From the IMG/VR virus record IMGVR_UViG_3300030109_000599, positions 1 to 41,956 of that record: a stretch of 41,956 bases of DNA; one strand, 5' to 3'. Shown in pieces: positions 1-41,956 of this stretch. This DNA comes from a virus. The position numbers and the translations under genes are program-made. The first letter of the stretch is position 1; each line of letters begins with the position of its first letter. The notes under the pieces are model-generated. The model was not told the origin of the DNA. It saw nothing but the letters and a program-made list of their open reading frames with translations, and made no database searches.

Positions 1-101
1 GTCGGGTATGTAGGGTTTAATAAAATCATTAAAACTTTGTGCTTCTTTTGTAATGTTGCCGTCTTCATCAGTAACAGTAAATCTATTATATGAATCAAGA
101 T
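1..101. repeat. Terminal direct repeat (circular assembly overlap), left copy
   Basis: Bases 1-101 match 41856-41956 at every position except 99 (G here, A at 41954). A gene reads in frame through the join, so this is best read as assembly overlap of a circular or circularly permuted map. The physical DNA ends of a T7-like phage would be expected between the late genes and the early promoter, near 25.2-25.7 kb, not inside this virion gene. Confidence 0.93.
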
Positions 102-8810: not shown

Positions 8811-9757
8811 GTCCACAATTTTCCCGTTACAGTTCCTTTGTTATATTCTGTTGCTCTATTTTCAAAGAAGTTGGCGTGTTCTACACCATTTAATATCCAA
8901 TCTAACCAGTCTAATGGATTATCTTTTACTTTATAATTAGTCTTTAATGACAGTTGCAACAGTCGTCTATCGGCTATGTACCTAATGTATTTCTTAACTT
9001 CTTTAGGTTCTAGCCCCCTAATACCACCTTGTTCAAAAGCTAAATCAATAAATTTATCTTCTAATTCAACCATCTCTCTACAGCTTTGATACAAAGTAGC
9101 TTTAAATTTATCATTCCACACTTTAGGATTTTCTTTTATAAGTTCTTTAAACAGTTTAATCATGCTTTCTACATGGTGTGACTCATCACGGATAGACCAT
9201 GTAACTATCTGACACATGCCTTTCATACGCCCAAAGCGTTGGAAGTTAAGTAACATAACAAATGAAGCGAACAGCTGTAGGCCTTCTCCAAATGCTGAAA
9301 AGCACGCGATGTCTCTAATTAAACCTTCTACTCCTGTTCCTTTGTTTTTAAATAAATAAGAATGCTTGTCTGCCATTTCTTTATATTCTTGAAATGCTTG
9401 ATATTCTTTTTCCGGCATGCCTATAGTATCATTTAATAAAGAATAACTATGTACATGATTCGCTTCTGCTGCGGCAAAAGATGTTAGCATCATGCGTACT
9501 TCATGCGGTTTAAATTTAGGTATGTATTTATCTAAGTATCCTTTAGCAATGTCTACATCACCTTGTGTAAAAAACTTTAGTATCTGATTAATTAAATTCT
9601 TTTCTGCAACAGTTAGTTTATCATTCCAGTCTCTTACGTCTTCATGTAAAGAAACTTCAGAAGGTAGCCAGTGCATTTTTTGTTGTAAGTCATAAGCTTG
9701 AAAAGCCCATTCATAATCAAACGGTTTATAATGCGGACGCTCTACAAATAAACTCAT
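8807..9757 (-). CDS. nrdB: Class I ribonucleotide reductase, small (beta) subunit
   Basis: A 316-residue ferritin-fold subunit that holds the metal-radical cofactor for reduction of ribonucleotides to deoxyribonucleotides. Residues corresponding to all E. coli NrdB ligands can be placed by spacing: D67, E98 and H101 in AEANHVHSY, the radical tyrosine Y105, then E158 (GEGLQLFASF), E192 and H195 in RDESHHVE. The intervals D67-E98 (31) and E158-E192 (34) equal those of the E. coli enzyme. A radical-type Tyr is present, so this is not a Tyr-less variant. The metal used (iron or manganese) cannot be told from sequence alone. The 4-nt ATGA overlap with nrdA suggests balanced synthesis of both subunits. 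Confidence 0.96.
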   Translation of the reverse strand: MSLFVERPHYKPFDYEWAFQAYDLQQKMHWLPSEVSLHEDVRDWNDKLTVAEKNLINQILKFFTQGDVDIAKGYLDKYIPKFKPHEVRMMLTSFAAAEANHVHSYSLLNDTIGMPEKEYQAFQEYKEMADKHSYLFKNKGTGVEGLIRDIACFSAFGEGLQLFASFVMLLNFQRFGRMKGMCQIVTWSIRDESHHVESMIKLFKELIKENPKVWNDKFKATLYQSCREMVELEDKFIDLAFEQGGIRGLEPKEVKKYIRYIADRRLLQLSLKTNYKVKDNPLDWLDWILNGVEHANFFENRATEYNKGTVTGKLWT

Positions 9758-11508
9758 CCTTCACATCCTGTGCATTCCGCATCTGGTATTATAGTTCTTT
9801 CTATTTTTTGTGACACTAACTCTGCTCTTTTAATTGCTTCTGAACGACAGTAATACAATGTTTTTAATTTACGTTTCCACGCTAACATGTGTATATCGTG
9901 TAGTTCTTTAATGTCTACATCAGCTGGAACAAATACATTAACTGATTGTCCCTGACATATAAACTCTTGACGGTCAGCGGCATGGCCAATGACCCATTGC
10001 TGGTTTATTTCTATAGCTGTTTTAAATGTATCCTTTTCATAATCTGTTAAACCTTTAATGTCTAACACTGAACCTCTATTAGCCAGTATTTTTTTCCATG
10101 TCTTATCGTCATTCATTCCTTTGCTTTCTAATAATTTTTCTAAGTATTTATTTTTAACTAAAAAAGAACCTGACATAGTTTTTTGAACATACGCATTGGC
10201 TCTAAACGGTTCAATAGATGGTGACGTAGTACCACATATTATTGAGCTAGATGCGTTAGGGGCGACAGCTAATAGATGAGCATTACGTAATCCAGTTCCT
10301 TCCATATCTACAGCTTCCCCTTTTTTCTTTGCTAATCTTTTAGATTCTTTGACAGCTTCTTCTTTTATGTGTCTAAACATTTGCATGTTTAAAGTTTTGG
10401 CTGTTACAGATTCAAAAGGAATACCTTTAGATTGTAAATAAGAATGAAAACCCATAGCTCCTAAACCTAAACTACGTTCACATATTGCGGAATACTTTGC
10501 ACGGTTTAAAGTTTCAGGGGCATGGTCAATAAAATGTTGTAAGACGTTATCTAAAAAATGTATTAAATCTGGAATAAACATTGGTTCTTTTTTCCATTCA
10601 TCATACTTTTCTAAATTAACAGAAGATAAACAGCACACAGCGGTGCGTGATTCATCGGTAGGTAAAGTAATCTCAGTACATAAATTTGAATGATGCACTT
10701 TAAGACCTAATTCTTTTTGTGGTTCAGGTAAACCATTATTAATAGTGTCACTAAAAACAATATAAGGTTCACCAGTAGCGACGCGGTTTTCTAAAATGCG
10801 TTGCCATAATTCTCTTGCGGATACTGTGCGTACTGTGTTTCCAGTGTGCGGGTCTATTAATGGCCAGCTATCATCATACGTTGGTTCGTTAATACAGTTT
10901 TCTATAAGAGACATAAACGTATCAGAAATATTAATACCGTGATGTAAGTTTAAACATTTACGGTGCACATCACCGCCACTTGGTTTACGCATGTCTAAAA
11001 ACTCAATGATTTCAGGATGGCTTACGTCCATGTAAGCGGCATAACTGCCCCTTCTAGTCTTTCCTTGTGAGAAGGCCAACATCTCTGAATCTACTACGTG
11101 TAAAAATGGGATTGACCCTGAGCTTTGAGAGCCATGACTTGTCGCTGTTCCATCAGAACGGATATGACCCCAATAACCACCTACTCCACCACCAACAGAC
11201 GCTAGCCACGCGTTCTCTGTATAGTGGTCAGTCAATCCCTCGCGGCTGTCTGGGACATAATTTAAAAAACATGAAATAGGTAAGCCCTTGTTAGTGCCAC
11301 CGTTAGTTAATATTGGTGTTGCAAACATGAACCACAGCTTAGATGCGTAAGAATAAATACGTTCGGCCATATCGTCGTTAGTTGAAAAAGCTTTGGCGGC
11401 CCTATAAAAAGCATCTTGTGGTGAAGTCTCATCTGATAATAAATACCTATCATGCAAAGTTGTCTTACCAAACGAGGTTAATAATTCATCACGGCTGTAG
11501 TCTATCAT
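9754..11508 (-). CDS. nrdA: Class I ribonucleotide reductase, large (alpha) subunit, short form
   Basis: A 584-residue catalytic subunit, much shorter than E. coli NrdA (761 aa). It starts directly in the catalytic barrel and appears to lack the N-terminal ATP-cone that gives overall-activity feedback. Active-site residues are visible: C80 in LPISCFLN (E. coli C225), N275, C277 and E279 in SNLCTEI (N437, C439, E441), C292 (C462), the radical-path pair Y552-Y553 in LKTLYYC, and a C-terminal CTGC thiol pair (C579, C582) for re-reduction. Loss of the cone would allow dNTP synthesis to continue when dATP is high. It is paired with nrdB, so it is class I, not the B12-dependent class II that short phage alphas are sometimes labelled. 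Confidence 0.96.
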   Translation of the reverse strand: MIDYSRDELLTSFGKTTLHDRYLLSDETSPQDAFYRAAKAFSTNDDMAERIYSYASKLWFMFATPILTNGGTNKGLPISCFLNYVPDSREGLTDHYTENAWLASVGGGVGGYWGHIRSDGTATSHGSQSSGSIPFLHVVDSEMLAFSQGKTRRGSYAAYMDVSHPEIIEFLDMRKPSGGDVHRKCLNLHHGINISDTFMSLIENCINEPTYDDSWPLIDPHTGNTVRTVSARELWQRILENRVATGEPYIVFSDTINNGLPEPQKELGLKVHHSNLCTEITLPTDESRTAVCCLSSVNLEKYDEWKKEPMFIPDLIHFLDNVLQHFIDHAPETLNRAKYSAICERSLGLGAMGFHSYLQSKGIPFESVTAKTLNMQMFRHIKEEAVKESKRLAKKKGEAVDMEGTGLRNAHLLAVAPNASSSIICGTTSPSIEPFRANAYVQKTMSGSFLVKNKYLEKLLESKGMNDDKTWKKILANRGSVLDIKGLTDYEKDTFKTAIEINQQWVIGHAADRQEFICQGQSVNVFVPADVDIKELHDIHMLAWKRKLKTLYYCRSEAIKRAELVSQKIERTIIPDAECTGCEG

Positions 11509-11517
11509 TGTCTCTCC

Positions 11518-11781
11518 TTAAACTATTTGTAGTGGGTCAATATCATCAACCCTTTTAATTTCTTCTACTTGTTTAATACGCCTGTCAATATATTCTCTGG
11601 CTTTTAACAAGTCTTCCAGTTTACCTTCCCATGTAGGATGCTTATGTTCCCAACGACACAAATACTTTATTGCGTTAGCTTCACAGTACGGGATGTTGTT
11701 AGCCATTATAAAATCTAACGGCTGTATTTTATACCTATTATAATGTTTAGGTTTTTTTACATTATCTTTTTTTATTGCCAT
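11518..11781 (-). CDS. DUF3310-family protein (gp1.7-type nucleotide-kinase domain)
   Basis: An 87-residue protein carrying the DUF3310 pattern: KPKHYNRYKIQPLDFI at residues 10-25, then CEANAIKYLCRWEHK, then KLEDLLKAREYIDRRIK. The same domain occurs in T7 gp1.7, a nucleotide kinase, and in many small phage proteins of unclear function. It lies between the exonuclease and nrdA, inside the DNA-precursor block, which fits a role in nucleotide metabolism. It overlaps the end of the exonuclease gene by 10 nt. The exact reaction is not established here. Confidence 0.8.
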   Translation of the reverse strand: MAIKKDNVKKPKHYNRYKIQPLDFIMANNIPYCEANAIKYLCRWEHKHPTWEGKLEDLLKAREYIDRRIKQVEEIKRVDDIDPLQIV

Positions 11782-12551
11782 AGTTTCACCTTCTTTGTTT
11801 TTTTATTGTATTCACCTTTACGTAAAATACGGGCTACCCTAGCTTGTTGAATAGCTTCATCTTTTGTAAACCCTTTGTCTTCATAAGCTTTTAATACTAA
11901 TTTCCACAGTTCTTTTATTGGTTTATCTGGGCCACCTAATATTTTTTCAGCTGACTTAGGGCCAACACTAGGCAACCCAGTATATCCATCTACCGAATCA
12001 CCTGTTAATGTTTGAACCATAAAGAAATAATCAGCATCTTTTTTACTTATGCTTTTAAAAGTCACACCATCTTCAGACACGTTAGTTGGTATCTGATTCA
12101 TGTCTTTATCTATTGATACTATTATCTTTTCAAAATCATAATAAGGGTCAGGGGTAGTAGCTAAGATTCCTAATACATCATCAGCTTCTAATCCTTCCCA
12201 GCAATATGCTTTATATTTTTCAATTAAATACTGTCTTAACACCGGTAAGATTAACGGCTTTCTTTTTTGTTTTCTATTGTTTTTATAAGATGGCATCACA
12301 TCTTTCCTAAAATTAATATGAGATGTTAATGCAATGCGTACATTTTTAGCTTCAAGATTTTCTTTTAACGTGGCAATTTGAGAGTCCACTTCAGCTTTAC
12401 ATTTATCTTCATAACAATGTAAAGTCCAAAGTCCTTCTCCCCAGTTTATTGCTTCTTCATTTTGCAACGCTACCTTATATAATAAGATATCGCCATCTAT
12501 TAATAAAACTCGTTTTGTTTTATAATTAGTTCCATTTGTTTTTCCTTTCAT
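11772..12551 (-). CDS. 5'-3' exonuclease (gp6-like, FEN family)
   Basis: Homologue of T7 gp6, which removes RNA primers and degrades host DNA. FEN-family motifs are in order: KRVLLIDGDILLYK near the N-terminus, KDVMPSYKNNRKQKRK (the helical arch), GLEADDVLGILA, VSIDKDMNQIP, then GDSVDGYTGLPSVGPKSAEKIL, a helix-three-turn-helix DNA-binding segment. I prefer the ATG at 12551 (259 aa), one base after the polymerase stop, because it leaves a leader of about 17 residues before the first motif as in T7. A TTG at 12581 (269 aa) has a GGGGAG seven bases upstream and cannot be excluded. Confidence 0.93.
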   Translation of the reverse strand: MKGKTNGTNYKTKRVLLIDGDILLYKVALQNEEAINWGEGLWTLHCYEDKCKAEVDSQIATLKENLEAKNVRIALTSHINFRKDVMPSYKNNRKQKRKPLILPVLRQYLIEKYKAYCWEGLEADDVLGILATTPDPYYDFEKIIVSIDKDMNQIPTNVSEDGVTFKSISKKDADYFFMVQTLTGDSVDGYTGLPSVGPKSAEKILGGPDKPIKELWKLVLKAYEDKGFTKDEAIQQARVARILRKGEYNKKTKKVKLWQ

Positions 12552-12552
12552 T

Positions 12553-14292
12553 TTAGTGTGTTTCACTCCAATTATGTCCAATTTTATACTCCCCTGTAAG
12601 AGGAATCCTTAATTCAAAATGTTTACCAGCTCGTTCAATAGCTTCAACCGCAAGTTTACCAACCTTTTCAGCACACAATGTAGGTGCTTCTATTTGTATT
12701 TCATCGTGCACCCATATTACTTGTTTATAATTAGGGCAACGATTTGATTGTTTATCAAATTCAACTAACCATTGCTTGCAAACTAATGCACCACTAGATT
12801 GTAACAACGTATTTAAAGCGGCATGTTCTGAACGTACTTTAATGTTCCTTCCATCTAAACCTTTTATGTATCCTTTAGCTGCTGCTGATTGAACATCAGT
12901 AATTAATTTGTTTAACGCTGGTAGATTGTTTAAGAATCTGCGTTTAATATTACTGGCTTCTCTAATACTTTTACCAGTAACTTCAGCTATCTTTTTAACA
13001 CCCCCACCGTATAGAAAACAATAATAAAAACGTTTAGCAACATCTCGACTATCTAATCCAGCCATTTTTTTAGTTTCAGTGTGGATATCACCATCGGTAA
13101 CCACTTTACTGTAAGCCCCACCGTCATACTTGGCCATGTAGTGTGCTAACATTCTTACTTCTAATCCAGATATATCAACACCAATAAGCATTTTACCATC
13201 TGGCACTTTAAATAATTCTCTACACTCTTTACCATACGGAACCGACACGCTGGGAACCTGAGCTAAATTAGGGTAAGCATGGGAAGCTCTTGCGGTTACG
13301 GTAGAATTTGTATTACATGTCCCATGAATTTTATCACCGACCACGCACTTTAACCATGCTTGTGCTCCGGTAGCTAACTGAGCCACGCGTTTATCTAATA
13401 AAAAATGTTCCGCCAATAGCTTCGCTTCCGGATACTCTAATGTCGATAGTATAGCATCATCCATCTTAGGTTTACCATCAGCTGTAAAAACTTTTGGCTT
13501 ATAATTGTACTTACGTTGTAACCTATCGACCACATGATGGCGACTAGATGGATTAAATACAGTTTTATTTTCTTTATAAAACACTTCACCCTTAACATAC
13601 CCTTTAGTCTTGTTGTTTACTTTAGGAATGAACGGTATTTTTTCTATTATTGGGGGAAATAATTCTTGCAATTCTTCTGATATTTCTAAGCGTCTAGCAT
13701 TTAATCTCCCATATAATTTTTCTCCTTTAGTTTTATCAAACATGAAACCTTGTTGTTCTTGTTTAAATATTAACTTAGCAACATCGTGCTCTAATTCCAT
13801 AGCCGGCTTTGAATAACCTTTCTTTTGTATTGATTTATATAAACCAGCATTAACTACAACGTCTTGTTTACAATATTCAATTAACTCTGGGGTGCACTCT
13901 TTCCAATCTGTTTTTATCTCTTGTTTATATGTACCTATCCTACATCCCCACGCTTCTAAGCTGTGTCTACCAATTAATTTGTTAGGAAAATTTTCTCCTC
14001 TTTTAAAATCAGAATCTTTTATGTCTGGAAATAATAATCTTGTTGCAACAATAGTATCGAACACTTTACCTTGTGGTTTAAAATCATAAATCTTTTTTAA
14101 CACTGGTATATCAAACTTAATTATATTATGACCAACAATAAGCTTGGCGGTAGTTAATCTTTTAATAGCATTCTTATTTGTATCATGTATTAATTTACCC
14201 TTATCTAAATCATATAAAATAATACAATGCACTTTAGTGACGTCAGCTAACAAACCGTTAGTTTCTATGTCAAATATATATCGTCCCTTCAT
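12553..14292 (-). CDS. Family A DNA polymerase with 3'-5' exonuclease (gp5-like)
   Basis: A 579-residue replicative polymerase, shorter than T7 gp5 (704 aa). Exonuclease motifs: D8 and E10 in FDIETNG, D61 in GHNIIKFD, D144 in YCKQD, so proofreading looks intact. Polymerase motif A is D373 in GVDISGLEVR, motif B is RDVAKRFYYCFLYGGG with K420, motif C is HDE at 529-531. The residue equivalent to E. coli Pol I F762 is Tyr (Y424), the form usual in lytic T7-like phages. The region between exonuclease and palm is compact, so the T7 thioredoxin-binding loop is probably reduced or missing. The start overlaps the nuclease stop as ATGA. Confidence 0.96.
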   Translation of the reverse strand: MKGRYIFDIETNGLLADVTKVHCIILYDLDKGKLIHDTNKNAIKRLTTAKLIVGHNIIKFDIPVLKKIYDFKPQGKVFDTIVATRLLFPDIKDSDFKRGENFPNKLIGRHSLEAWGCRIGTYKQEIKTDWKECTPELIEYCKQDVVVNAGLYKSIQKKGYSKPAMELEHDVAKLIFKQEQQGFMFDKTKGEKLYGRLNARRLEISEELQELFPPIIEKIPFIPKVNNKTKGYVKGEVFYKENKTVFNPSSRHHVVDRLQRKYNYKPKVFTADGKPKMDDAILSTLEYPEAKLLAEHFLLDKRVAQLATGAQAWLKCVVGDKIHGTCNTNSTVTARASHAYPNLAQVPSVSVPYGKECRELFKVPDGKMLIGVDISGLEVRMLAHYMAKYDGGAYSKVVTDGDIHTETKKMAGLDSRDVAKRFYYCFLYGGGVKKIAEVTGKSIREASNIKRRFLNNLPALNKLITDVQSAAAKGYIKGLDGRNIKVRSEHAALNTLLQSSGALVCKQWLVEFDKQSNRCPNYKQVIWVHDEIQIEAPTLCAEKVGKLAVEAIERAGKHFELRIPLTGEYKIGHNWSETH

Positions 14293-21920: not shown

Positions 21921-21954
21921 AAAAAAATGTGGGGGCCAGCCGAAGCCAGCCCCC
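21921..21954 (-). terminator. UUCG-tetraloop terminator upstream of RNA polymerase gene
   Basis: On the minus strand GGGGGCTGGC and GCTGGCCCCC form a 10-bp stem (two wobble pairs) closed by a TTCG tetraloop on a C-G pair, an extra-stable loop. After ACA comes a run of seven T (21927-21921). This is a classic intrinsic terminator. Its stem shares GGGGCTGG...GGCTGGCCCC with the post-capsid hairpin. It separates the early small genes from the polymerase gene. Confidence 0.9.
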
Positions 21955-21961
21955 CGTTGTG

Positions 21962-22474
21962 TTATCTCCAGCTAACTACTTGTTGCTCTTCAGGAACATC
22001 AAGCACTTTAGCTTCCCCTCTGCTCATAACAGCTTTCACTGAAGCTGCTACACTTTTAGTATCAAAGATAGTGTAGTACATGTCTGGGTATTGCTCTTTA
22101 AAAGCATCCAGTGTTATATCTTGCATGGCGGCTCCTAGCCCACGCTCGATACGGTCCCATGTTTCACGAGACGGGTTCTCATGGTACTTAGGTATTCTCC
22201 CTATCTTAGGAAGGTGAGACCTAAAGAATGACATAAACTGGCCACGTCTATTGCATAGTCCGTTATTGAACAAGTCATAGCAAAGCTTGGAAGCTCTTCT
22301 AAGACGCTCTAGTTTCTTGTTAGCCCCAGTAGCGTCATGGACTTCACCAGAGTACGGTACTCTATGCCATAGCAATTTATCTATGGCCTTAAAGCCAACC
22401 GTATCACGGGACCCCCAGTCATATTGAACATTAGTATCAATGCTCGCTCTTCTTAATATTTTACTTCTCATCAT
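21962..22474 (-). CDS. Early protein of unknown function (basic, 170 aa)
   Basis: A 170-residue soluble basic protein (MMRSKILRRASIDTNVQYD ...) with no family that I recognise. The middle is Arg/Lys-rich (KKLERLRRASKLCYDLFNNG), which would suit nucleic-acid or host-protein binding. It is the last gene before the early terminator. Hammerhead D ends 24 nt before its start, and the conserved AACAACAAGAGG leader precedes the ATG. A second ATG follows at once (22471). By position it may be a host-takeover protein, but the sequence does not show a mechanism. Confidence 0.65.
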   Translation of the reverse strand: MMRSKILRRASIDTNVQYDWGSRDTVGFKAIDKLLWHRVPYSGEVHDATGANKKLERLRRASKLCYDLFNNGLCNRRGQFMSFFRSHLPKIGRIPKYHENPSRETWDRIERGLGAAMQDITLDAFKEQYPDMYYTIFDTKSVAASVKAVMSRGEAKVLDVPEEQQVVSWR

Positions 22475-22498: not shown

Positions 22499-22548
22499 GC
22501 TGTTTCATGCTCTTGCAATCATCAGTACAGGCATTACCTGTATACAGC
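22499..22548 (-). ncRNA. Hammerhead ribozyme D (type III topology)
   Basis: Read 5'-3' on the minus strand from 22548. Stem III GCTGT pairs with ACAGC at the 3' end. The cleavage triplet is GTA, with the cut predicted between 22543 and 22542. Stem I is TACAGG/CCTGTA with loop TAATG. The invariant CTGATGA follows directly, then stem II TGC/GCA (flanked by a T-T) with loop AAGA, then GAAA, whose last A pairs in stem III. All conserved core bases are present. It ends 24 nt before the ATG at 22474. Confidence 0.88.
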
Positions 22549-22565
22549 TTAAAGTTCCCATATTA
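22549..22565 (+). promoter_or_regulatory. Phage RNA polymerase promoter P6 on the plus strand (antisense to early genes)
   Basis: The plus strand reads TTAAAGTTCCCATATTA followed by GATAG, with predicted +1 at 22566. It matches P1 at 15 of 17 positions, and the GATA after it is also shared. It points away from the RNA polymerase gene and into the early genes, opposite to every confident gene. It directly abuts hammerhead D. Confidence 0.72.
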
Positions 22566-22600
22566 GATAGAACCCTACCCCCCTTTGACGTACTATAGCT

Positions 22601-22635
22601 ATACTCTAAGGGATACCAAAGCATCCCTAGAGTAT
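22601..22635 (+). promoter_or_regulatory. Long hairpin just downstream of plus-strand promoter
   Basis: ATACTCTA and TAGAGTAT plus GGGAT/ATCCC make a stem of 13 bp with a one-base bulge and an eight-base loop. It begins 35 nt after the predicted start of the P6 transcript. On the plus strand it is followed, 13 nt later, by TTTTATTTT, so it might partly terminate that transcript. On the minus strand it lies in the leader upstream of hammerhead D and lacks a U-tract. It could also be an RNase III site. Confidence 0.6.
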
Positions 22636-22650
22636 AACCTAAACTCCCTT

Positions 22651-22902
22651 TTATTTTACTACCTTCCTTTCTGAATAAGCTGGAAATGAGTCAGCTATGT
22701 GCTCATACATTTCAAAGAACCTATTGCCATTTGGCGTCATTGTTGGGTTCTTAGCTTTCTCAATCATCCACCTTTCAAACGCTGGAAACTTGGTACTATC
22801 AAGCGTCTCAGTAGCATTCCAGTCTAACGTCCCTAAAAACTCATCCCACATTGGTTCAAGCTTAGAGTCCGCTAAGTATTGTTCTAATGTTAGTTCACTC
22901 AT
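22651..22902 (-). CDS. Early hypothetical protein (83 aa)
   Basis: A small acidic soluble protein (MSELTLEQYLADSKLEPMWD ...) ending in SERKVVK, with no motif that I recognise. It has the early leader AACAAGAGAGGTAAAT before its ATG. It is coupled at a distance of 29 nt to the preceding acidic protein, and no ribozyme lies between them. The plus-strand promoter P6 points into it from its 3' side. Confidence 0.6.
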   Translation of the reverse strand: MSELTLEQYLADSKLEPMWDEFLGTLDWNATETLDSTKFPAFERWMIEKAKNPTMTPNGNRFFEMYEHIADSFPAYSERKVVK

Positions 22903-22931
22903 ATTTACCTCTCTTGTTGTTGATTAAATAT

Positions 22932-23183
22932 TTAAAGACCAATACTGGCTTTATTAACTCCTCTATCTTTACAATTACGGTGGTCATCTTCTTCATGCTC
23001 CTCATCTTCTTTGTAATAGAACATGATTTCTCCCTCTACTTCTGCAACATCATCTTCTATTTCACAATGATATTCCTCGTCATACCATACCCAATTAGTA
23101 TGACCATATTTAAATTCACAATAATCATCTATCACATCTGATAGACTTGTGCATTTATCTAATTTTATTGATTTATTTTTCAT
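22932..23183 (-). CDS. Very acidic early protein (83 aa), possible DNA mimic
   Basis: The ATG at 23183 is preceded by AAAGAGGAAACTAAT, the shared early leader. Upstream in-frame ATG codons lack it. The product starts MKNKSIKLDKCTSLSDVIDD and is crowded with Asp/Glu in its middle and later part (for example EIEDDVAEVEGE and KEDEEHEEDD). Small acidic early phage proteins can act as DNA mimics that block restriction or host enzymes, as T7 Ocr does, but no homology to Ocr is visible and the role is a guess. Promoter P4 lies directly upstream, so it is expressed by both host and phage polymerases. Confidence 0.65.
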   Translation of the reverse strand: MKNKSIKLDKCTSLSDVIDDYCEFKYGHTNWVWYDEEYHCEIEDDVAEVEGEIMFYYKEDEEHEEDDHRNCKDRGVNKASIGL

Positions 23184-23218
23184 ATTAGTTTCCTCTTTGT
23201 TGTTAATTGAATAACTAA

Positions 23219-23243
23219 ACTGACCCACATAATGTAGGCCAGT
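23219..23243 (-). promoter_or_regulatory. 5'-terminal hairpin of the P4 transcript
   Basis: The transcript predicted from P4 starts with G at 23244. The next 25 bases fold as ACTGgCCTACA / TGTGGGtCAGT with a TTA loop (11 pairs including two G-U). A stem at the very 5' end commonly protects phage mRNA from decay. No hammerhead core is present here, unlike the neighbouring early leaders. Confidence 0.6.
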
Positions 23244-23244
23244 C

Positions 23245-23261
23245 TAGTATGGGCACTTTAA
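23245..23261 (-). promoter_or_regulatory. Phage RNA polymerase promoter P4 (inside early block)
   Basis: The minus strand reads TTAAAGTGCCCATACTA followed by GACTG, with predicted +1 at 23244. It overlaps the last bases of the upstream gene. It would let the phage polymerase re-transcribe the acidic protein gene and its neighbours after host promoters are shut off. Confidence 0.82.
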
Positions 23262-23788
23262 ACGTCTAAGCTAGCACTACGTCCATTTTCCTTAATAAAC
23301 CTAGCACGTCTTGCCGGACAGTCACCCATGATAATGCTAGTCAAAAGAGACTCAACGCTCATTTCACTTCTCATTTTCTGGATAGACCTACAGCGGCTGG
23401 TCCATGCTCGGCCCCTGACAACGTAATTAGTTCTTTTATGCTTTTGCATAGTGAGAACACCTTGCCTTATCAGATTATTAAGCTGCCTGAGTATCTGGCT
23501 GTCTTTTTGGTTTTTAGGGTCACCGTTCCTATGCTTAGAAAATCGTGGTAAGACGTATCTAAGATAGGACAAGAGTTTACTCTTATTGAGACACCATACC
23601 GAGTCATCTTCAGTTAGCTTCTCACCTATACAATGAGAAGTACCATATCCGTCGTGTTTAAGTACACGCAAAATAAGGTTCTGAATATCCTCTGGCGTCT
23701 CTGGCTCATCTAAAAAATAAGACAAGAGATACTGCTTGGCTTTTGCTATTTGACGTTTAGTAGGTTTATGTTCCAGTTCTGGTAGCAT
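23258..23788 (-). CDS. Early basic protein of unknown function (176 aa)
   Basis: A 176-residue soluble protein rich in Lys and Arg (KPTKRQIAKAKQYLLSYFLD near the start; RRARFIKENGRSASLDV at the end). It has several Cys but no clear zinc motif, and I recognise no family. The region ILRQLNNLIRQGVLTMQKHK could be a winged-helix-like DNA-binding segment, but this is weak. Hammerhead C ends 23 nt before its ATG, with the leader AACAACAACACGTGAGG. It is the last gene before promoter P4. Confidence 0.62.
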   Translation of the reverse strand: MLPELEHKPTKRQIAKAKQYLLSYFLDEPETPEDIQNLILRVLKHDGYGTSHCIGEKLTEDDSVWCLNKSKLLSYLRYVLPRFSKHRNGDPKNQKDSQILRQLNNLIRQGVLTMQKHKRTNYVVRGRAWTSRCRSIQKMRSEMSVESLLTSIIMGDCPARRARFIKENGRSASLDV

Positions 23789-23811
23789 AAATTACCTCAC
23801 GTGTTGTTGTT

Positions 23812-23862
23812 ACTGTTTCGACTTAATAAGTCTCATCAGAGCGGACATAATCCGCTGACAGT
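23812..23862 (-). ncRNA. Hammerhead ribozyme C (canonical, GUC cleavage site)
   Basis: Read on the minus strand from 23862. Stem III ACTGT/ACAGT is extendable by one T-A pair on each outer side. The cleavage triplet is GTC, with the cut predicted between 23857 and 23856. Stem I is AGCGGA/TCCGCT with loop TTATG. The core is CTGATGA, then a perfect 5-bp stem II GACTT/AAGTC with loop ATT, then GAAA. This is the most textbook-like of the four and alone would identify the class. Confidence 0.95.
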
Positions 23863-23876
23863 ATAGGGCCCAGCTG

Positions 23877-24161
23877 TTAAGCTGAACCCTTCATTTTTTG
23901 CATTATTGGTATGATGACCATGCCTAGTAAACATCCAATTATGGTCAATAACATCCATTCGATATTAAGGGTAGCCAGAAATCCTACAGCGTCACTGAAG
24001 GTATTTCCTAAGCCACCACAAACGCACGCGAGCACGAGCGGGTCAGCTTTGGCGTCAATATTGAATGTTTTTTCAAGCCAATTTTCTACAGATAGGAATG
24101 AATAATACATACCCAGTATTAGTATAAAGTTGTCCATAAAGCCAAAGATAATAAACTCCAT
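23877..24161 (-). CDS. Early membrane protein (94 aa)
   Basis: A hydrophobic protein with probably two to three transmembrane helices: residues 3-24 (FIIFGFMDNFILILGMYYSF), about 44-62 (VLACVCGGLGNTFSDAVGFL) and 68-88 (WMLLTIIGCLLGMVIIPIMQ). The pattern MEFIIFGFxDNFxLxLG with a Gly-rich GGLGNTFSD centre recurs in small membrane proteins of marine phages whose role is unknown. It overlaps the previous stop as TAATG. Because it is early, superinfection exclusion or membrane takeover is more likely than lysis, but a holin cannot be excluded. Confidence 0.68.
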   Translation of the reverse strand: MEFIIFGFMDNFILILGMYYSFLSVENWLEKTFNIDAKADPLVLACVCGGLGNTFSDAVGFLATLNIEWMLLTIIGCLLGMVIIPIMQKMKGSA

Positions 24162-24343
24162 TAGTCCACCATCCAGCTGTATTTTCCAGCCATTGGTAAG
24201 AGCTCATGATTATCTAAGGCCCTTAATATTAGTACACGCTGTAAACGTGTGTATGATATGTCATTTTTGACCATTTCCGCTACTTGTTCAAACTTATATT
24301 CGTCTTCCTGAGTAACGTTGTTATTAGATTGAAATAATCTCAT
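24161..24343 (-). CDS. Early hypothetical protein (60 aa)
   Basis: A small soluble, probably helical protein (MRLFQSNNNVTQEDEYKFEQ then VAEMVKNDISYTRLQRVLIL). I recognise no family. The start is backed by AAAGAGGATATT before ATG, nearly identical to the leader of the preceding early gene, and hammerhead B ends 24 nt upstream. It is coupled to the following membrane protein by TAATG. Confidence 0.62.
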   Translation of the reverse strand: MRLFQSNNNVTQEDEYKFEQVAEMVKNDISYTRLQRVLILRALDNHELLPMAGKYSWMVD

Positions 24344-24367
24344 AATATCCTCTTTGTTATGTTAAAT

Positions 24368-24418
24368 ACCGTTTCATACTTTCGTAATCATCAGTCCGGA
24401 CGCTCATCCGAATACGGC
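24368..24418 (-). ncRNA. Hammerhead ribozyme B
   Basis: Read on the minus strand from 24418. Stem III GCCGT/ACGGT has one G-U pair. The cleavage triplet is GTA, with the cut predicted between 24413 and 24412. Stem I is TTCGGA/TCCGGA (one wobble) with loop TGAGCG. Then come CTGATGA, a short stem II TAC/GTA closed by a GAAA tetraloop and flanked by a T-T, and the core GAAA. Upstream, between the previous gene and this ribozyme, the spacer 24419-24492 contains GCCAGC/GCTGGC and CTATC/GATAG pairings, so the whole intergenic RNA is structured. Confidence 0.87.
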
Positions 24419-24492
24419 GGCCAGCGGACATAGAGCCCGCCAGCCATTACCAGCACTCACCCACTATCTATGGGATAGCTGGCGTTTGATTT

Positions 24493-24825
24493 TTAGTTGT
24501 TGTGTGAATACTCAGAATGAAGACAGTTATTATCATCATACATCATATTGGCATATGCGTTGTCTATCGCATGTTGGCCTGTTTCAACACTCTCAGCACG
24601 TGACGTGTTCTCTGAGTTTAGAAAACAAGTTATCTGCTTGCTTGTTGTAGGTGAATACTTATGGCTAGTGAAAAACCATTTATTACATTTTGCAACGTCT
24701 CTATCATCCCTAAATGCTACAGGCGTAGCGTATGACATAAGAATGGTTATACCGTTATCACTCCATATACTAAGATTAGACACACTCGCCTTGCGGCCGT
24801 CGTGAGTTATATACATTTTTTTCAT
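24493..24825 (-). CDS. First early gene, DUF8033-like protein (110 aa)
   Basis: The ATG at 24825 has GAGG five bases upstream. An upstream in-frame ATG at 24861 would lie within the ribozyme and is rejected. The product (MKKMYITHDGRKASVSNLSI ...) has the pattern ILMSYATPVAFRDD followed by KWFFTSHKYSPTTSKQITCFL. This resembles a family of small phage proteins with SYxTxVA and W..S.TTxKH/Q motifs (DUF8033-like, from memory and unverified). Function is unknown. As the first protein gene behind the host promoter it occupies the slot of T7 gene 0.3, where anti-restriction proteins are found, but no such activity is shown by sequence. Confidence 0.68.
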   Translation of the reverse strand: MKKMYITHDGRKASVSNLSIWSDNGITILMSYATPVAFRDDRDVAKCNKWFFTSHKYSPTTSKQITCFLNSENTSRAESVETGQHAIDNAYANMMYDDNNCLHSEYSHNN

Positions 24826-24840
24826 AATATCCTCTTTGTT

Positions 24841-24890
24841 GTGTTTCGTTTGGCATCTCATCAGGTCTAGGTTGCCATACCTAGCGACAC
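24841..24890 (-). ncRNA. Hammerhead ribozyme A with loop-loop kissing pairing
   Basis: Read on the minus strand from 24890. Stem III is GTGT/ACAC. The cleavage triplet is GTC, with the cut predicted between 24886 and 24885. Stem I is G plus CTAGGT/ACCTAG plus C with one bulged A, and loop ATGGCA. The core is CTGATGA, then a minimal stem II (one G-C pair) with loop ATGCCAAA, then GAAA. TGGCA of loop I is perfectly complementary to TGCCA of loop II, a five-pair kissing contact that could replace the missing stem II. It ends 15 nt before the first early gene. Confidence 0.85.
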
Positions 24891-25259: not shown

Positions 25260-25287
25260 ATTCTACAGATATTTGACATGGTGTCAA
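25260..25287 (-). promoter_or_regulatory. Host sigma70-type early promoter with operator-like dyad
   Basis: The minus strand has TTGACA at 25287-25282, a 16-base spacer and TAGAAT at 25265-25260. The predicted start is near 25253. It is the best host-type promoter seen in the window and faces the early genes. An AT-rich stretch upstream (25288-25320) could be an UP element. The -35 box is half of a perfect dyad TTGACA-CCA-TGTCAA (25273-25287), which resembles a repressor operator. Confidence 0.82.
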
Positions 25288-40266: not shown

Positions 40267-41956
40267 TATATTTCCTCATTCTGGGTTATTAGACCAATAA
40301 GTATTTGAGCTATTTGGTCTCCAGTTAGTAAGTCGTTATTTCCGTCTCTAAGTTCAAGTTCCCTAGCTAGGTTATTAAATATTGGAATTACACTGTTAGG
40401 GTTTGAATTATATACATTAGCTATATTATCTATAGTTACAGTGTTATTGAACAATGTAGAAAGAACAGTGTTAAACTCATTTAATAATGTTTCTCTATTT
40501 CTAATCTGTAAATATTTAGTTGGGGAGTTTTCGTCTGTAACCGCTGGTGGTAATTCAAAATTAAGCACATTCGCGTCGTCCACAGACAACAATGGTAATA
40601 TATTGTTTAATTGTTCTTTTAATGCTTGGGTATCTACTTTATCAATAGTGGTTTCAAACTCTGCTGCATTTCTAGCGTCTAATAAATTAGGGGTAGTGTT
40701 TATTGCTTCTTCTAAATCTACACCACTCATTATTTCATCTGGTTCTGCTCTGTTTTTATATCTATCAAGAAGAACCCTATTAATTCTATCAGTTATTGCT
40801 ATAGCGTCCATAGGGGACGGGTCCCTTCCGTTAGTTTCTTTAAAATATTCAATCTCTCGATTTAACATAAGAGTATACTCTCTTTCATATCTCATTTTAA
40901 TTCTTTCAAAATTACCAGACGGGTCTATTTTTCTACCCAGCATATCTTTTGTAGTAGCGTAAGTATCTTCAACCATAGCCAAACCATTTGCATAAAGATT
41001 TTTATATTTATATGTTCTAACTAAAGTAACGTCCCCATTTTCTCTTATACTTTCAGAGTTGGCCCACGCTTTTGAAAGGGCGGCTACTCCGGTGCCGTTA
41101 ATTTCAGCTCCAGCCATCCTTTCTATTAATTCTCCGTATGTTTTAATAGTGCCGCTATAAATATCATATTCAATTTCTTCCATAGCCACTGTACTGTTTT
41201 GTGCGGCGTTCCAATTTGATTTAATGGTATTCCATGATTGTAAATATCTTCCACCGTCTATTTTAGCAATTATTGCTGTAGCTGCTTGTTCTCCTTCTAT
41301 GTCACTATTTACTAATGCTTCAATACCACTAAGACTTGCTTGTCTAAAATTCTTATCATCTTCTCTTTTTCTTTGAGCTTCGTCAAATTGTAATATAACT
41401 CTTCTTTTAGCAAATGCTTGGTTTATTAAAGTGTTTACTTCTTCTGCTTGGGTGCTAGCTAAAGAACCTATTTGATTACCACCTACGCCTGTACCTCTGT
41501 CTACAGATAAAACACTTAAAGCTAAATCTATTTCATTTTCAGTACGTGCTTGTTTTATTAAACCATCTGCTACTCTCATTAAAACAGCGTTTGATTCTGT
41601 TGTTGTTAAAAACTGTGTTACTTTTCCATCTATTTTAGGAAGTTCAATACTAAATGATTTTAAATCTGGTATTACACCATCTATACCATCCTCAGTAGTT
41701 AATAATCTATTTCTTATAAAATCAGATGCTTGGCTTATTTTATGATTAGTCCAATATTCTGCTCTTATTTCTGCGTCTTTAACTTCTGATTCTGCTTTCC
41801 ACTGACCAAAAGTAGCGGCAAAAGAATTATTGTAATATTTAGATTGTAAAGAAAGGTCGGGTATGTAGGGTTTAATAAAATCATTAAAACTTTGTGCTTC
41901 TTTTGTAATGTTGCCGTCTTCATCAGTAACAGTAAATCTATTATATGAATCAAAAT
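40266..41956 (-). CDS. Internal virion protein, gp15-like, C-terminal 529 codons (begins at 441 across the join)
   Basis: Continuation of the gene that starts at 441. The frame is open from 41855 down to 40266 with no stop in 41580-41855 (for example LSLQSKYYNNSFAATFGQWK, then KAESEVKDAEIRAEYWTNHK), adding 92 codons before the Met at 41579 that would otherwise look like the start. Full length is 676 residues. The C-terminal part is acidic and helical (TPNLLDARNAAEFETTIDKV). Annotating only from 41579 would truncate the protein by more than a third. Bases 41856-41956 repeat the first 101 of the window. Confidence 0.8.
   Translation of the reverse strand, partial: FDSYNRFTVTDEDGNITKEAQSFNDFIKPYIPDLSLQSKYYNNSFAATFGQWKAESEVKDAEIRAEYWTNHKISQASDFIRNRLLTTEDGIDGVIPDLKSFSIELPKIDGKVTQFLTTTESNAVLMRVADGLIKQARTENEIDLALSVLSVDRGTGVGGNQIGSLASTQAEEVNTLINQAFAKRRVILQFDEAQRKREDDKNFRQASLSGIEALVNSDIEGEQAATAIIAKIDGGRYLQSWNTIKSNWNAAQNSTVAMEEIEYDIYSGTIKTYGELIERMAGAEINGTGVAALSKAWANSESIRENGDVTLVRTYKYKNLYANGLAMVEDTYATTKDMLGRKIDPSGNFERIKMRYEREYTLMLNREIEYFKETNGRDPSPMDAIAITDRINRVLLDRYKNRAEPDEIMSGVDLEEAINTTPNLLDARNAAEFETTIDKVDTQALKEQLNNILPLLSVDDANVLNFELPPAVTDENSPTKYLQIRNRETLLNEFNTVLSTLFNNTVTIDNIANVYNSNPNSVIPIFNNLARELELRDGNNDLLTGDQIAQILIGLITQNEEI
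41856..41956. repeat. Terminal direct repeat (circular assembly overlap), right copy
   Basis: Matches bases 1-101 with one mismatch (A at 41954, G at 99). The mismatch is two bases from the end, so an end-of-contig read error or strain variant is the simplest cause. Confidence 0.93.

Follow-up and report, generated by a model that had tools for sequence, protein, structure and literature searches.

Type III Hammerhead Ribozymes Precede Early Genes of a Pelagivirus-Related Phage and May Divide Its Early Transcript

Early Region of the Phage

The virus record IMGVR_UViG_3300030109_000599 is a phage sequence of 41,956 bases with a G+C content of 36.8%, referred to here in its full length as the window, and its early region carries four type III hammerhead ribozymes, W1 to W4, on the minus strand within 2.4 kb. 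Each of the four was found once, as the preliminary description of this sequence had proposed, with coordinates that agree within 1 nucleotide (nt). The ends of the window (1-101 and 41856-41956) overlap by 101 bases, of which 100 are identical, so that the record is either circularly closed or, as assembled, terminally redundant. Its RNA polymerase (RNAP) shows 74% amino acid identity to that of Pelagibacter phage HTVC109P, 61-74% to those of the genus Pelagivirus, and less than 50% to all others, and the gene order, RNAP included, is the T7-like order of Pelagivirus (Autographiviridae). Judged by these comparisons, the phage is a marine Pelagivirus relative, T7-like and related to phages of SAR11, an abundant bacterium of the ocean, with no formal assignment to the genus. 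The early genes lie on the minus strand, upstream of the RNAP gene. The features are given below in the order of transcription.

24841..24890, minus strand: W1, type III hammerhead before gene 1, triplet GUC, predicted cut after 24886 (core, shuffles and a covarying ortholog)
24493..24825, minus strand: early gene 1, 110 amino acids; homologs in relatives follow type I, II or III hammerheads
24369..24417, minus strand: W2, type III hammerhead before genes 2-3, triplet GUA, predicted cut after 24413 (covariance models)
24161..24343, minus strand: early gene 2, 60 amino acids, open reading frame
23877..24161, minus strand: early gene 3, 94 amino acids; homologs in contigs L136, L085 and L228 and in HTVC109P
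23811..23863, minus strand: W3, type III hammerhead before gene 4, triplet GUC, predicted cut after 23857 (relaxed RF00008 match, covariance models and fold)
23258..23788, minus strand: early gene 4, 176 amino acids; homologs in L136/L085 follow a type I hammerhead
22932..23222, minus strand: early gene 5, at most 96 amino acids, start codon uncertain; a hairpin only in front
22651..22902, minus strand: early gene 6, 83 amino acids, open reading frame
22499..22548, minus strand: W4, type III hammerhead before gene 7, triplet GUA, predicted cut after 22543 (covariance models and fold)
21962..22474, minus strand: early gene 7, 170 amino acids; homologs in L085/L136
19459..21897, minus strand: phage RNAP gene, 812 amino acids, T7-like (phrog_414, E 6e-254)

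A family search with gene 2 gave no match. The direct scan for relatives of genes 4 and 7 gave none that were useful; their homologs in L085/L136 were detected by local tblastn.

Structure and Position of the Four Hammerheads

The conserved core (CUGANGA, GAA and A15.1-U16.1) is exact in all four elements, and the NUH cleavage triplet is GUC in W1 and W3 and GUA in W2 and W4. Three helices with an open stem III are fully present in W2, W3 and W4. Stems I, II and III of W3 comprise 6, 5 and 6 base pairs (bp), respectively, and the minimum-energy folds of W3 and W4 are the hammerhead itself. W2 and W4 both have a stem I of 6 bp, with a stem III of 4 bp in W2 and 5 bp in W4, and their stem II opens with a U-U mismatch at positions 10.1/11.1, which is a natural active variant with more activity than other mismatches (PMC3088659). 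W1 has a stem II with a single Watson-Crick pair at its base, a stem I containing a bulged A and a stem III of 4 bp; its sequence reads GUGU-C / predicted cut / GCUAGGUAUGGCAACCUAGAC-CUGAUGA-GAUGCCAAAC-GAA-ACAC. Loop I (UGGCA) and loop II (UGCCA) of W1 match in a 5-bp kissing contact, and among the four elements a clear, covarying tertiary contact between these loops is seen for W1. The full core that the preliminary description had ascribed to all four is thus retained, whereas its three stems have to be qualified by the one-pair stem II of W1 and the U-U openings of W2 and W4.

The predicted first bases downstream of the cuts, 24885 (W1), 24412 (W2), 23856 (W3) and 22542 (W4), were recomputed and are identical to the 5′ ends proposed earlier. 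Stem III ends 15 (W1), 25 (W2), 22 (W3) and 24 nt (W4) before the start codon, so that the placement close to early start codons stands and its range, formerly given as 15-24 nt, widens to 15-25 nt.

Chance Expectation, Covariance Models and Covariation

The motif CTGATGA-N4-30-GAAAC occurs four times in the window against 0.14 expected, a number reached in none of 100 shuffles, and 5000 dinucleotide shuffles of the early region yielded no element equal to or better than W1. Because a covariance model seeded with window sequences is partly circular, a model named R2 was built from 15 relatives only, with the window sequences left out. R2 scores W3 at 40.8 bits (E 1.6e-9), W4 at 35.7 bits (E 5.1e-8) and W2 at 25.7 bits (E 4.7e-5); W1 is too divergent for this model. 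The model from window plus relatives gives 54.9, 52.2, 48.9 and 33.6 bits for W3, W4, W2 and W1, respectively.

At the gathering threshold, Rfam reports no hammerhead in the window, and nothing except one tRNA in 108 kb of pelagiphage early regions. The curated cut-off of RF00008 (48.5 bits) lies above all four elements. At a relaxed threshold W3 is the sole significant RF00008 match (43.8 bits, E 1.8e-7), and W1, W2 and W4 are not listed as matches to that family, so that the four significant Rfam hits anticipated beforehand come down to one. The elements nevertheless resemble Hammerhead_3 (RF00008) in core, stems and open stem III, and W3 aligns with it end to end; they depart from it in the U-U of W2 and W4 and in the one-pair stem II and kissing loops of W1. 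A reading of W1 as a type II hammerhead (RF02276, 17.6 bits) was rejected, as there is no matching 5′ arm.

Covariation was assessed on 14 type III elements, 4 of which come from the window itself. Cells changed on both sides number 73, compared to 26 in shuffles, paired cells amount to 87% compared to 59%, and the covariation score is 0.654 compared to 0.180 in shuffles and at most 0.12 with slid partners. These values support the earlier statement that the stems vary while the core is kept.

The divergent W1 could be compared by hand with an ortholog. A direct scan with gene 1 found a homolog with 60% protein identity in contigs L227/L228, and the hammerhead before it reads GUUGU-C / predicted cut / GUACGGCAUUGGUAGCCGUGC-CUGAAUGA-GUAACCAAC-GAA-ACAAC. 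Between the two, stem III is altered on both sides, the stem I sequence is new and stem II is still one pair, while the complement between loops I and II passes from UGGCA/UGCCA in W1 to UUGGU/ACCAA, with both sides replaced.

Hammerheads across Pelagivirus and Beyond

Relatives, comprising contigs recruited by the polymerase and named phages, were scanned with a simple scanner for the three topologies. In the first set of relatives, 87 hits scored at least 12, whereas reversed and complemented sequence gave none; near-identical contigs are counted among the 87, as are two hits with long loops that are probably false. Of 13 annotated Pelagivirus genomes, 12 have clear hammerheads, which belong to types I, II and III, number one to three per genome and all lie on the coding strand in the early region:

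HTVC109P: types II, I, II
Eistla: types I, II, I
HTVC031P: types III, II, I
HTVC168P: types III, I, II
HTVC142P: types III, I
HTVC019P: types III, I
S35-C6: types III, I, I
HTVC131P, HTVC022P, HTVC304P, HTVC201P: one type I each
HTVC021P: one type III

In an end-to-end scan of 11 near-complete genomes, all 23 clear hammerheads lie on the RNAP strand, 0.6-4.5 kb upstream of RNAP. An open reading frame starts within 110 nt downstream in 76 of 82 distinct elements, mostly with a Shine-Dalgarno-like sequence, a proportion that leans high since the start picker favours such starts. The array before early genes, described earlier for the window, is a pattern that recurs across the genus. Long-loop scanner hits in coding genes (scores 9-13; HTVC168P 16325, G007 39004 and HTVC142P 11402) were put down to chance. 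In HTVC121P, a decayed type III hammerhead lies within an annotated small gene, gp03 (L211:514-741).

Outside the genus, the distant T7-like contig L177, whose RNAP is 37% identical, contains nine hammerheads at 9179-13515 (one type III and eight type II), and each gene in a run of nine consecutive early genes has one of them directly in front of it. The type III pattern was also seen in further viral contigs (L085-L203), where, among the matches listed, 50 of 119 loci have at least two hammerheads, on a single strand in all 50; many of these contigs are about 60 kb long, with no T7-like homolog found in the portion examined.

No hammerhead was found in the early regions of the pelagiphages HTVC134P, HTVC120P, HTVC200P and HTVC119P, nor in those of the Roseobacter phages CRP-125 and CRP-227, a Limnohabitans phage, LUZ100 and T7. 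This distribution bears on the proposal that the array replaces host RNase III in early mRNA processing and makes the phage independent of that enzyme. The sites do follow the logic of T7 early processing, at the junction of leader and gene 1 and in intergenic gaps upstream of RNAP, and T7 and the sister groups are free of hammerheads. However, sister pelagiphages of the same hosts also do without them, hairpins unaccompanied by hammerheads remain in the window, and T7 itself is able to grow without RNase III. Because HTVC134P, HTVC120P and HTVC119P, which share the host HTCC7211, have no hammerheads, the ribozymes are not needed to offset a host property. A phage copy of the RNase III gene is absent, and bacterial genomes scanned with the phage RNAP or integrase gave no matching host genome. 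Replacement of RNase III is considered unlikely, and independence from it goes beyond the evidence.

Topology Switching before Homologous Genes

The hammerheads before homologous genes differ in topology, as circular permutations of the ribozyme. Downstream proteins that are 87% identical follow a type II element in L040 and a type I element in L061, and proteins that are 60% identical over 131 residues (E 2e-49) follow type II in L010 and type III in L061. Members of the protein family of window gene 1 are preceded by types I, II and III, and window gene 4 lies behind the type III element W3 while its homologs in L136/L085 (38-40% identity) lie behind type I. L040 and L043 have the stem III hairpin in common and differ in the open stem. 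Since topologies differ before homologous genes, what selection preserves would be a cut ahead of the gene and not one inherited RNA; cleavage itself, instead of a particular ribozyme, appears to be under selection.

Such interconversion, in which the cleavage architecture is retained, is difficult to reconcile with the view that the elements are non-catalytic remnants or structural RNAs related to mobile elements or circular RNAs, that is, hammerhead look-alikes. Eukaryotic hammerheads are often tied to selfish elements (PMC3088659), and some copies in this lineage have decayed, as in HTVC121P. Nevertheless, the core is retained in all four window elements with covarying stems, the copies are not each accompanied by a repeat element or integrase, and all clear copies are sense-oriented and lie in the early region, which makes this view very improbable.

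Ends of the Predicted Cleavage Products

The topologies also differ in the products that they would leave. For a type I or type II element, the upstream RNA would carry stem III of the ribozyme itself as a terminal hairpin; for type III it would not. The internal type III elements W2, W3, HTVC031P 297 and L061 5907 each have an extra hairpin that adjoins the ribozyme or is at most 4 nt away (z -2.5 to -4.2), and the mean folding energy of the 50 nt before the element is -12.6 kcal/mol for type III, compared to -5.5 for type I and -5.3 for type II. The upstream hairpins fit 3′ end protection, as in T7 processing. Many first-gene type III elements of pelagiviruses have a different, conserved internal-loop hairpin upstream, unlike that near internal elements; it is seen (..AAGGCGG-stem-GTAGGT..) some 50 nt ahead of the first such element in L005, L010, L014, L020, L026 and L212. 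Hairpins and control signals of the window are as follows.

25260..25287, minus strand: promoter-like TTGACA-16-TAGAAT, 11/12 match, about 370 nt upstream of the W1 cut site (weak)
24419..24445, minus strand: hairpin 1 nt from W2 on its 5′ side (z -2.5)
23866..23889, minus strand: hairpin 2 nt upstream of W3, overlapping the end of gene 3 (z -3.2)
23215..23247, minus strand: 15-bp core of a 16-bp hairpin in the gap between genes 4 and 5, without a hammerhead (z -4.1)
22598..22639, minus strand: long hairpin 49 nt upstream of W4 (z -3.8 for the surrounding 111 nt)
21931..21954, minus strand: terminator-like hairpin with a T-run, between gene 7 and the RNAP gene

The hairpin at 24419..24445 would become the 3′ end structure of the upstream mRNA once W2 cuts. 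That at 23215..23247 is a possible RNase site or 3′ end, and both plain hairpins, 23247-23215 and 22639-22598, could be open to processing by host RNases; the noise of general hairpin scans is too high for calling RNase III sites. Expression of RNAP may depend on read-through of the terminator-like hairpin at 21954-21931. Promoter-like sites in the region number 9, compared to 11 expected in shuffles, and the best match, at 25260..25287, is a candidate early promoter.

Proposed Role in Early mRNA Processing

We consider it probable, at roughly 80%, that W1 to W4 are self-cleaving hammerheads that cut the early transcript cotranscriptionally into short mRNAs. The basis of this reading is the sequence, structure, covariation, position and strand of the elements, their recurrence in relatives and the switching of topology, from which we infer cleavage in cells, its timing, the protection of ends and the benefit. 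One cut would fall between the leader and gene 1 and one each before genes 2-3, gene 4 and gene 7, each giving an upstream RNA with a 2′,3′-cyclic phosphate and a downstream mRNA with a 5′-hydroxyl. The downstream mRNA would begin at the stem I hairpin and carry its own ribosome-binding site in the 15-25 nt ahead of the start codon, and the upstream products would mostly end in a hairpin, either stem III (types I and II) or the extra hairpin beside an internal type III element. The likely benefit would be independent, RNase-resistant mRNAs for small host-takeover genes, where T7 has RNase III sites.

Several observations weigh against this reading. The minimum-energy folds of W1 and of W2 differ from the hammerhead, and W1 is not significant with model R2 (12.3 bits, E 0.4). 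The L227/L228 ortholog of W1 has an insertion after A6, which is reported to lower hammerhead activity (PMC3088659), so that W1-type elements may be slow cleavers. Even among hammerheads that conform to the consensus, 4 of 18 were inactive in vitro (Perreault et al. 2011, PMC3088659). In the distribution, HTVC121P, the 13th annotated Pelagivirus, retains a decayed copy only, G009 and G010 lack hammerheads in the end-to-end scan (2 of the 11 near-complete genomes), and the early gaps between genes 4 and 5 and between gene 7 and RNAP have none. Furthermore, Rfam thresholds miss nearly all hammerheads of this lineage, and the hairpin rule is based on about five internal type III elements.

Active ribozymes might instead mainly trim 5′ leaders or tune the expression of each gene, where a 5′-hydroxyl end and a 5′ hairpin would adjust mRNA stability or translation, possibly under regulation by Mg2+ or folding. 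W1 separates the leader from gene 1, which is trimming and not gene division, type III elements nearly always keep a rather uniform distance of 15-35 nt to the start codon that follows, and regulated cleavage of phage hammerheads was discussed by Perreault et al. (PMC3088659). Nevertheless, type I leaves the downstream product without a stem I hairpin and still takes the place of types II and III in front of homologous genes; the hairpins that precede internal type III elements suggest a significance of the upstream product as well; and most elements show no extended sensor domain. This alternative has a real chance of being correct, with the balance tilted against it.

Adjacent ribozymes could also excise RNA segments that are then ligated into circles or otherwise rejoined, given that pairs of hammerheads flank single genes, hammerheads are capable of ligation and RtcB-type ligases exist in hosts. 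Each ribozyme, however, is tied to a downstream start codon and not to a symmetrical partner, and no spliced or circular products were found in similar arrays (Perreault et al., PMC3088659). We regard this possibility as hardly credible.

Beyond division of the early transcript in the window, a broader proposal is made tentatively, at slightly under even odds: hammerhead arrays of interchangeable topology would be a dedicated early-mRNA processing system of Pelagivirus and at least one other T7-like lineage (L177), in which RNA alone does the job of RNase III in T7 and selection keeps a cut before each gene, not a particular ribozyme.

Relation to Known Systems and Implications

In T7, host RNase III cuts between the leader and the first gene and between early genes, giving stable short mRNAs with 3′ hairpins. 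The predicted cut sites of the window likewise lie between leader and first gene and at intergenic early sites, a likeness of positions only; by position, then, the earlier suggestion of ribozymes at T7-like processing sites is borne out. T7 relies on long, imperfectly paired hairpins and a protein of the host, whereas the window RNA would cut itself, leaving a 5′-hydroxyl and a 2′,3′-cyclic phosphate.

The preliminary description knew of no described multi-copy array that serves in early mRNA processing, but multi-copy arrangements had in fact been described. Perreault et al. 2011 (PMC3088659) found clusters of hammerheads on either side of single prophage genes and suggested that the transcripts are processed into mRNAs of gene length; cleavage was demonstrated for three arrays in vitro and for one in E. 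coli. As in the prophage clusters of A. tumefaciens, A. caulinodans and C. scindens, where several hammerheads of mixed types flank single genes or short blocks (PMC3088659), the window has a multi-hammerhead transcript (at least two on one strand flanking genes), with four. The general idea of multi-hammerhead processing of phage transcripts is therefore already known. Unlike those prophage loci, which have no constant genes, the arrays here occupy a T7-like early region genus-wide, directly before start codons, with topologies that change before homologs; the lineage-wide early array, the T7-like placement and the topology switching are new. The hammerhead variant of haloviruses HF1/HF2 (HHphage) is similarly close to an early gene, 13 nt upstream, with a transcript 5′ end mapped at the cut site, at most 3 nt away (PMC3088659); unlike the window elements, it is a single copy with a variant core in an archaeal virus. 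No report of hammerheads in pelagiphages, Pelagibacter, SAR11, marine phages or Autographiviridae was found in the open-access literature searched.

The biological role of bacterial and phage hammerheads has been open since their discovery. Here the function is directly testable, in a cultured and very abundant genus, where a genome has one to three clear ribozymes at predictable positions and the window has four, and an infection transcriptome (RNA-seq) exists for HTVC022P (PMC12753301). Natural contrasts are provided by sister phages of the same hosts without hammerheads and by topologies swapped before homologous genes. Because standard Rfam annotation misses such ribozymes, self-cleaving processing may be common in marine phages. 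Relatives retain hammerheads at the same early-gene positions even where the topology has been rearranged, which suggests that phages of this group divide their transcripts themselves.

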